Below, piece after piece: positions 28,321 through 30,829 of a stretch of DNA of 40,594 bases. Below the pieces are notes generated by a model. That model saw only the letters and a program-made list of their open reading frames with translations, was not told the origin of the DNA and ran no database searches. Position 1 is the first letter of the stretch; each line of letters opens with the position of its first letter. Location of the stretch: NCBI GenBank assembly GCA_018663505.1, contig JABJQG010000004.1, forward strand, positions 1 through 40,594, written 5' to 3'. Both the position numbers and the translations under genes were made by a program. The DNA comes from Pseudobdellovibrionaceae bacterium (GTDB lineage Bacteria > Bdellovibrionota > Bdellovibrionia > Bdellovibrionales > UBA1609).

Positions 28321-28989
28321 ATGCCAAATCATTTACAAAACGCAATTAGCTCCCTAGAAGAAAAATTATCTTTACTTAGCCATAATGTAGAGAAGCAACT
28401 TAAGGGATCCATTAAAGCTTTAAAAAACCGCGACATTGAACTTGCTCAAAAAGTCATTACCAGAGATGAAGAAATTGATGTGATGGAAGTGGAAGTGGAA
28501 GAAGATTGCTTAAAAATTTTAGCGCTTCACCAACCTGTGGCCATTGATTTAAGGTATGTAACAGCCGTACTAAAAATCAACAACGATCTTGAGCGGGTCG
28601 GAGATTTAGCCGTCAACATTGCAGAACGAGCCATCTACCTGTCTAAAAAAAGTCATATTGAAATTTCTTTTGATTTCGAAGAGATGACCACAAAAACTAT
28701 GGCGTTAATAAAAAAATCTTTAAAATCCCTCTATACTCGTAGCACAGAACTTGCCTACGAAGTGATTCATGAAGACGAAGAAATTGATGATATGAATCGT
28801 AAGATGTACAAACGCGTATATGAGGAAATCAAAAAAGCACCTGAAAACGTAAAAGTTCTAGTTCATTGTTTATCAATTTCAAGGCATCTAGAGCGTGTGG
28901 GGGATTATGCCACAAACATTGCTGAAGATGTGATTTATATGATCGAAGGCAAAATCATACGACACTCAGCTGAGGTTTATGAAGATTAG
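28321..28989 (+). CDS. phoU: Phosphate-uptake regulator PhoU
   Basis: This 222-residue all-helical PhoU links PstSCAB activity to phosphate signalling. The two repeats contain the metal-binding DLRYVTAVLKINNDLERVGDLAVNIAERA and the matching CLSISRHLERVGDYATNIAEDV. This is the last gene of the pst operon; no phoB/phoR is present in the window. The SD is weak. A large multi-arm inverted-repeat element begins 5 bp after its stop. Confidence 0.96.
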   Translation: MPNHLQNAISSLEEKLSLLSHNVEKQLKGSIKALKNRDIELAQKVITRDEEIDVMEVEVEEDCLKILALHQPVAIDLRYVTAVLKINNDLERVGDLAVNIAERAIYLSKKSHIEISFDFEEMTTKTMALIKKSLKSLYTRSTELAYEVIHEDEEIDDMNRKMYKRVYEEIKKAPENVKVLVHCLSISRHLERVGDYATNIAEDVIYMIEGKIIRHSAEVYED

Positions 28990-28993
28990 GGCG

Positions 28994-29193
28994 TTTTTCC
29001 GTCCATGGGAAATCGAGGCTGGCCAGCCTCGATTTCCGCAATTTAATGGCATCGTGCCATTAAAACTAAAAAAAAACTAATAATCGTGTTCTATTGAATT
29101 CATTTTCTTTCCTTCAATAGATTTCCCCACACGACGTGGGGAAATTGGTGGGTTCGGGTCGCCTTTAGGCCCGATCTCCCATGGATGGAAAAA
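28994..29193 (+). ncRNA. Multi-arm inverted-repeat element between phoU and asnB (structured RNA or MITE-like)
   Basis: An outer stem pairs 28994-29010 with 29177-29193 over 17 positions: 16 Watson-Crick pairs and one G29001-T29186, which is a G-U wobble only in plus-strand RNA. Inside it lie a perfect 30-bp palindrome (29008-29037, sharing bases with the outer stem) and a 10-bp stem with TCG loop (29042-29064). A 9-bp stem (29090-29098 with 29113-29121), a 10-bp stem with ACGAC loop (29121-29145) and a short TCGGG/CCCGA arm (29154-29174) follow. Some pairings are mutually exclusive. Nothing in it looks coding. It resembles a multibranch RNA or a palindrome-rich miniature transposon; no second copy was seen in the window. 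The structure is seen directly, its role is unknown. Confidence 0.6.
29068..29134 (-). terminator. Probable intrinsic terminator of asnB within the inverted-repeat element
   Basis: On the minus strand, TCTATTGAA pairs with TTCAATAGA (fwd 29121-29113 and 29098-29090). It can extend through TCGTGT/ACACGA (fwd 29134-29129 and 29089-29084) around a 7-nt bulge. A TTATTAG spacer and nine Ts follow (fwd A-run 29068-29076). It lies 112 nt after the asnB stop. Confidence 0.55.
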
Positions 29194-29245
29194 TCATCAA
29201 CTTTGCACTAAAAGCCTCAAAGCCAAATCTACCATAAAACACCCT

Positions 29246-30829
29246 CTACACACCAGAAGCCCCATAGTTTGGCAACACTCTTGCGCTAGGGTCCTCAACG
29301 TCACAGTTTTCCCAGTCTCTATTGGGTAACCAAAAATCTTTAACCAACTGACTTTGACCTGTGAAACGGGATTCAAAAATCTCTCTATACAACAGAGCCT
29401 CTTTTGTTCTTGGGGTTGCATGTTCATACTTTACCTGTGCTAAAAACAAATCCTTATCCGAATATTGAGTAGCGGCATAAGCAACTAAATAGTCTACCAC
29501 GGAGTGACCAACGGCATCGGAGAAGGCTGCTTTTTCTCGATACAAAATATCTTGAGGTAAAAAGTCACCTTCAAAAGCTTTTCGCAAAAGATGTTTTCCA
29601 ACACCTGTGGAATTCATTTTTAACTCTGGATTAATACTTAAAGCGTATTGTACAAAATCCGTGTCACTAAATGGGACTCTGGCCTCTAAGGAGTTGGAAG
29701 CTATACACCTATCTGCTCGTAGTATGTCATACATATAGAGCTCTTTTATGCGTTTTTCAGACTCTTTTTGAAACTCGTAGGCGTTAGGGGCAAAGTCCGT
29801 ATATTTGTAGCCAAACAGCTCGTCACTGACCTCTCCTGTTAGTAGTACTTTTACGTCAGTTTCTTTTTGAATGTACTCACAGAGCAAACTCATGCCCATG
29901 GAGGCTCTGATACTAGTTATGTCATAGGTTTCCAAACGGTAGATTAAATCGTGTAGCGTTCTAAAGATATCTTCTTTTTTAAATAAAACCTCATGATGCT
30001 TAGATCCAATATACTCTGCTACCACTTGTGCATATTTCGTATCTATTGGCTTTTCGTTAATGCCCACGGCAAAGGTGGTAATTGGCTTTTTTAAAATCTT
30101 CGTGGCTATAGAGCATACAAGACTAGAGTCTAAACCACCACTTAATAAAAACCCTAATGGAGCATCAGAATCTAATCTTTTATTCACTGCCTCAATAAAC
30201 AAATCTCTAATGTTTTTTAAAACCTCTTTTTCTGAATGAGTGGAAAACTTTTTAACCTCTTCAATAATTAAATAAGGCTTTATCTCCTTTCCATCAAAAT
30301 AATGACCTGGTGGAAAGGGTTTTATATCTTCACAGAGTGCTGAAAGTGATTTAACCTCACTGGCAAACGCATATCTACAGGACTTATCATTTTTAATTTT
30401 TCCATAGAACAGAGGGCGAACACCCATGGGGTCACGAGCAGCAACGTAAGTTGCCCTTTGCTCATCAAACATCACAAAGGCATACTCACCATCAAGCTGC
30501 AAACAGGTTTGTTGTAAACCAAATTTCTCTATTAAAGGCAAAATCACTTCACAATCGGAATTGGAATGAAGTTTTAAATCATGTTGTTTAGCTAGGCCTT
30601 TATAATTATAGATCTCCCCATTACAAACCAAATGCTTTTGCTGACTTACGAATGGCTGGTGACCTGAAGGGGAGAGATCCATTATTGCCAACCTGTGAAA
30701 ACCAATAAAATGATCCTTAAACCATACTTTATTGGAGTGGTCAGGGCCTCGATATTGAATACGTTGAAACTCATTTTCAACTTGCTGTTCATCCCCCTTA
30801 GCAAAAGGTCCCGTCATAAATCCACACAT
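29246..30829 (-). CDS. asnB: Asparagine synthase (glutamine-hydrolysing) AsnB
   Basis: This 527-residue amidotransferase makes asparagine from aspartate, glutamine and ATP. The glutaminase domain begins MCGFMTG, with Cys2 as the N-terminal nucleophile. This fixes the start at the ATG at 30829, which also has a GGAGG SD, and rules out the longer frame. The domain also contains QYRGPDHS, NGEIYNY and ARDPMGVRPLFYG. The synthetase domain has the ATP-binding SGGLDSS and LLTGEVSDELFGYKY. It is divergent from asnC, and its terminator seems to lie in the inverted-repeat element downstream. Confidence 0.96.
   Translation of the reverse strand: MCGFMTGPFAKGDEQQVENEFQRIQYRGPDHSNKVWFKDHFIGFHRLAIMDLSPSGHQPFVSQQKHLVCNGEIYNYKGLAKQHDLKLHSNSDCEVILPLIEKFGLQQTCLQLDGEYAFVMFDEQRATYVAARDPMGVRPLFYGKIKNDKSCRYAFASEVKSLSALCEDIKPFPPGHYFDGKEIKPYLIIEEVKKFSTHSEKEVLKNIRDLFIEAVNKRLDSDAPLGFLLSGGLDSSLVCSIATKILKKPITTFAVGINEKPIDTKYAQVVAEYIGSKHHEVLFKKEDIFRTLHDLIYRLETYDITSIRASMGMSLLCEYIQKETDVKVLLTGEVSDELFGYKYTDFAPNAYEFQKESEKRIKELYMYDILRADRCIASNSLEARVPFSDTDFVQYALSINPELKMNSTGVGKHLLRKAFEGDFLPQDILYREKAAFSDAVGHSVVDYLVAYAATQYSDKDLFLAQVKYEHATPRTKEALLYREIFESRFTGQSQLVKDFWLPNRDWENCDVEDPSARVLPNYGASGV

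Follow-up and report, generated by a model that had tools for sequence, protein, structure and literature searches.

The window element

What is the 200-nt, multi-arm palindrome that lies between two convergent genes, phoU and asnB, in a Pseudobdellovibrionaceae genome: an RNA derived from the 3′ UTR of the pst operon, a bidirectional terminator or a miniature, palindrome-rich element? A sequence-only reading of the window, that is, of the whole 40,594-nt stretch of contig JABJQG010000004.1 analysed here, had put forward all three. The phoU stop lies at 28989 and the asnB stop at 29246, and the palindrome sits in the gap between them. Its architecture is real, as the outer stem, the 30-bp palindrome and all of the internal hairpins were confirmed. 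Its extent is in part as claimed: positions 28994–29193 hold, but the element is larger, as a right outer arm runs to about 29243, so that it spans nearly the whole distance between the two stop codons. Folding of the 200 nt gave −90.6 kcal/mol for the plus strand (z −10.5, 0 of 200 shuffles as good) and −81.4 kcal/mol for the minus strand (z −7.5), an energy that again no shuffle reached; on both strands the fold is well beyond that of shuffled sequence.

The outer stem pairs 28994 onward with 29193 backward. Read along the plus strand, the left arm of this conserved stem (28994–29012, TTTTTCCGTCCATGGGAAA), an inverted repeat, leads into left hairpin 1 (29008–29037), which is identified by its inverted repeat and by comparison with other copies as a perfect 30-bp palindrome, and then into left hairpin 2 (29042–29064), with a conserved ATCG loop and a stem of the type TTAATGG/CCATTAA. 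A variable centre (29065–29119) that includes a copy-specific hairpin (29090–29121) lies between the two half-units. Right hairpin 2 (29121–29145, ATTTCCCCACACGACGTGGGGAAAT) has the loop ACGAC and is followed by right hairpin 1 (29154–29174, TCGGGTCGCCTTTAGGCCCGA), which in other copies has an IS481-family element inserted in its loop region, and by the right arm of the conserved outer stem (29175–29193, TCTCCCATGGATGGAAAAA), the other part of the inverted repeat. The right outer arm (29190–29243, ATCAACTTTGCACTAAAAGCCTCAAAGCC...CATAAAACACC), recognized by alignment of outer arms across copies, ends beside the asnB stop codon. Its left counterpart is absent or cut short at phoU, where the last codons of the gene (28974–28989, GGTTTATGA) show a weak sequence resemblance to the left terminal repeat and may preserve a remnant of it.

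A dispersed family of inverted half-units

At least 40 places in the source genome match the 200-nt stretch (search of 3.78 Mb, 72 contigs), and a 14-base core, CCCACACGACGTGG, occurs 56 times with one mismatch allowed, against 0 for the reversed control. R1, a covariance model derived from 41 of the copies, finds about 59 dispersed loci in the same genome at E 1e-9 or better, and matches the window copy at 28996–29189 with E 2.7e-36. The count of 59 is our own, with C27:20 and C53:50160 taken as one copy because the sequence of these two contig ends overlaps. The copies are intergenic and nearly all of them lie at genes other than the pst operon; together with 0 matches at the phoU loci of 80 other species, this rules against a pst-operon 3′ UTR RNA. 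By contrast, the 59 dispersed copies, their terminal inverted repeats and their TA flanks bear out the suggestion of a miniature element. The spread of copies over the genome may be uneven. In a 400-kb sample (L143–L162), for which about six hits to the 14-base core are expected, there are none, and the same sample holds one copy only (L148). One copy in the genome carries an expanded run of TTTC repeats (L032, element centre near 1640–1690).

Each copy consists of two inverted half-units with two hairpins apiece. Within a half-unit, CATCC(N)xATC is followed by hairpin 1, by a short linker (GAGCWCCGCAAT, AAACCCGCAAT or AACCYRCCAAT) and by hairpin 2 with a conserved loop; the variable centre comes next. 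Different kinds of half-unit mix: a GAGGC hairpin on the left can be joined to a CGGGCC hairpin on the right, and in L219 the left hairpin is of the AGGGC kind and the right one of the GAGGC kind. The conserved outer stem of an intact copy is extended by outer arms ~50 bases long that terminate in TGGGTTTATGAGTGGGT. Of 18 unique ends, 13 have TA as the two adjoining bases (genome frequency 8%, p 5e-11), which makes TA the candidate target site duplication of the element, though it could belong to the repeat itself. Shorter elements of 60 bp (L209) and 95 bp (L216) have identical ends and share these ends only. The former (L209:1558–1617) is a hairpin of two terminal repeats and nothing else, and may represent the element in its smallest form. 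The latter (L216:1469–1563) is a palindrome with the same terminal repeats and a different interior, and a second long, near-perfect palindrome (TATGAACGCACTTCGTCGCAAAAAG...) comes directly after it, about 20–90 bases downstream.

Stems change, loops stay

How is the structure maintained in so many copies? Of the 2082 cells in an alignment of 41 copies, 93.1% are paired, a cell count that overstates independence because a few ancestral events were inherited by many copies. Sliding the partners by one column lowers the pairing to 45–52%. Double-sided changes are found at 23 of 51 pairs, against 11.6 in shuffles, and they lead from one Watson–Crick pair to another with few G-U intermediates. In hairpin 2 the whole stem is swapped (TCTAATGG, TTCTTCAA, TTCTCCCA) around a near-constant loop; in general, the two sides of a stem are exchanged together, and the loops and linkers remain as they are. 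The outer arms likewise match within a copy and differ between copies: in 11 of 31 copies no right arm of the whole set matches better than the one from the same copy, and in 0 of 20000 random pairings was the observed mean reached (p < 5e-5).

The perfect palindrome of hairpin 1 occurs only in the window copy, and the other copies with that half-unit have GCCGCCTCGAGCWCC or a close variant. Compared with these, the window hairpin has one inserted A and a change of GC to TT, all of which improve the palindrome. Correction of quasipalindromes by template switching is an established mechanism, and a perfect hairpin in one copy beside imperfect ones in the others is the pattern that it is expected to leave (PMC7202029). 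We infer that the symmetry within copies is probably restored in this way; selection on structure is a possible alternative source.

The very stable fold, the strong covariation, the conserved loops and the position of copies directly after stop codons could also be taken as the signature of a structured RNA family, either a 3′ UTR element or a small RNA, with stems under RNA selection and perhaps a role in protecting mRNA 3′ ends. Several observations make this unlikely. The passage from Watson–Crick to Watson–Crick pairs with few G-U intermediates argues against it, and in Rfam no family scored above the gathering cut-off for the element, or came near it; the only hit was a tRNA elsewhere in the window. 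The single G-U pair of the outer stem, which had been read as a hint of a plus-strand transcript, is present, but the hint does not survive comparison across the family, in which G-U and A-C deviations stand at 22:20 (one constant pair is left out, and the outer stem is counted without copies that have the other left end). If stems were kept as plus-strand RNA, G-U would exceed A-C. In tandem gene gaps the element lies 8 times along the genes and 8 times against them, with no orientation preference. From both balances we read the structure of the element as strand-independent.

Copies gather at the 3′ ends of genes

Among copies with both neighbours known, 23 of 44 lie in convergent gaps, compared with 42 of 204 genome gaps (p 4e-5), the baseline being gaps 30 bases or longer from 440 kb of this genome, drawn on 20 stretches of 20 kb and processed with the same simple gene caller as the copies. 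Of the gene ends that flank copies, 69 of 98 are 3′ ends, with copies mostly right after stop codons, and divergent gaps hold only 5 copies. This distribution, together with the nearly complete bridging of phoU and asnB, is what a bidirectional transcription terminator for convergent genes would show. Such a terminator is nevertheless very improbable, as a search of both strands of the window gap for a hairpin followed by a T run, the canonical intrinsic terminator, returned 0 sites. In a few cases a separate terminator does separate the gene from the element, and such terminators are rare at gene ends across the genome (5 of 69 at copies, 14 of 154 in the baseline). We considered separate upstream terminators as an argument against a termination role and set it aside: their rate equals the genome baseline and favours neither view.

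An insertion sequence found only in hairpin 1

Where several of the copies break at contig ends we found an insertion sequence of about 1.27 kb (L022:1–1284, C56). Its 384-aa transposase has IS481-type domains, and its ends are identical at every junction seen. All junctions found in the genome (8 left and 10 right ends, 18/18) fall inside hairpin 1, and the insertion sequence has a single orientation relative to this hairpin. The left flanks finish CCTT, CCCT, CCGT or CCCC and the right flanks start CCTT, CCCT or CCCC; one right end (C56) has only two bases of flank, CC. The recurring tetramers point to a target duplication of 4 bp, which is deduced from the flanks as a set, not from single copies, as the two ends of one copy are mostly on different contigs. 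Almost all junctions coincide with contig ends, which makes the insertion sequence the cause of many assembly breaks and means that poorly assembled copies elsewhere could be missed. It is seen at the ends of contigs C3, C6, C14, C24, C26, C31, C34, C36, C38, C53, C58, C64, C66, C69 and C70.

Relatives in other families

Is the element restricted to its source genome? In 46 other genomes of the same family R1 gave no convincing match. In a genome of another family of the same order (G095) it gave nine, the best at E 1.4e-8. A model of the half-unit, R2, was run on 141 genomes and made 23 matches at no fewer than 18 loci in G095. It also made two matches, at E about 1e-5, in a genome of a third family (G030), and on reading both of these sequences carry the conserved CATCCTG..AATCGGGGC and the linker. 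The linkers and loops of G095 are the same or nearly so, and its stems differ; taken together, the half-units of the source genome and G095 are 97.7% paired, with 13 of 17 pairs doubly changed. Single R2 matches in six further genomes (L251, L252, L253, L254, L255 and L256; E 0.0015 to 0.004) are near what chance gives over 141 genomes; on reading, all six resemble coding sequence or unrelated hairpins that lack the conserved linker, and we treat them as chance. An exact-pattern scan found no copy in GTDB 220 genome contigs or in viral contigs, and as relatives were later found by structure we judge this pattern too rigid.

The presence of relatives in other families implies that the element is older than the source species or has moved between families. 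The patchy occurrence fits a mobile element. Alternatively, the conservation of linkers and loops across families could reflect a selected function.

A model for the element

We interpret the window feature as a member of a dispersed family of palindromic elements that are non-coding, probably mobile and similar to REPINs and MITEs, and we assign this reading a probability of roughly 0.72. No pair of filled and empty sites was found, so that mobility is something we infer; the same holds for the upkeep by template switching and the absence of an RNA role. According to this model the hairpins would matter as DNA, extruded as cruciforms or formed on the lagging strand in either orientation, rather than as strand-specific RNA. 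Copies would spread by transposition, a putative transposase recognizing their ends, and template switching at quasipalindromes would restore the symmetry inside each copy, as in hairpin 1 of the window. The bias towards 3′ ends would mainly reflect the survival of the least harmful insertions, and a passive effect of copies on the flanking mRNA 3′ ends is possible.

Which enzyme might move the element? The genome holds no IS630-type DDE_3 gene. Y1_Tnp gives ten matches at nine loci, and a true REPIN moved by a resident Y1 (RAYT-like) transposase would account for an inverted doublet that forms a hairpin, is extragenic, occurs in many copies and is targeted by an insertion sequence. We consider such a REPIN distinctly unlikely. 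None of the nine Y1 loci has an R1 match, an element hairpin, a part or an end nearby, and linkage to Y1 transposases was rejected on this ground. The GTAG/CGTC tag is absent from the base of the hairpins, which by eye are flanked by ATC and by CCGCAAT or similar, the units are far larger than REPs and the ends are TA-flanked terminal repeats. Nor was an isolated terminal repeat seen beside a recognizable transposase, in an analysis that covered some transposase families individually, DDE_3 and Y1_Tnp among them. The Y1 (TnpA_REP-like) loci themselves (L227, L229–L236) have few strong hairpins near them, and one of the genes is broken by a stop codon.

A more speculative extension, which we hold only tentatively, is that the half-unit is the recognition unit of a novel mobile or chromosome-organizing system that spans three or more families of one order. 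A putative factor would recognize the half-unit in its folded DNA form, and the IS481-family element would have come to use it as its only safe landing site.

What are the implications of such a repeat? Here is a family in which hairpin form and loops are kept and stem sequences turn over completely, both within a genome and between families of bacteria. This makes the origin of covariation testable, as selection on structure or as correction by template switching. Moreover, a strong covarying fold beside a gene need not mean a regulatory RNA.

Comparison with known systems

TA-flanked MITEs of the IS630/Tc1-mariner type are short, non-coding, intergenic and bounded by terminal inverted repeats next to TA. 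The element is likewise short, non-coding and intergenic, with terminal inverted repeats next to TA and internally deleted versions. It differs in that IS630-type transposase is absent from the genome and in that its interior is made of conserved, modular hairpins. bcr1 is a long, highly structured, dispersed intergenic repeat of bacteria, and the element resembles it and similar repeats in length, structure and dispersal, a likeness at the level of description. Stem-loop repeat families of bacteria have been surveyed (PMC2267715). With REPINs and REP doublets the element has in common many extragenic palindromic copies, two inverted hairpin units that form a hairpin, compensatory changes and targeting by insertion sequences (PMC3116915, PMC3733652). 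Unlike REPINs, the present family measures about 200–300 bp, carries a pair of hairpins in each half where a REPIN has a single short REP, shows no link to a RAYT gene, and has TA-flanked terminal repeats and wholesale stem replacement. REPs are known targets of insertion sequences of the IS3, IS110, IS4, IS256 and IS5 families; IS1397, IS621 and ISPpu9 are examples of insertion sequences with copies at one position of a palindromic repeat (PMC1525189). Here the invader belongs instead to the IS481 family, apparently an example of an IS481-family insertion sequence restricted to the hairpins of a repeat.
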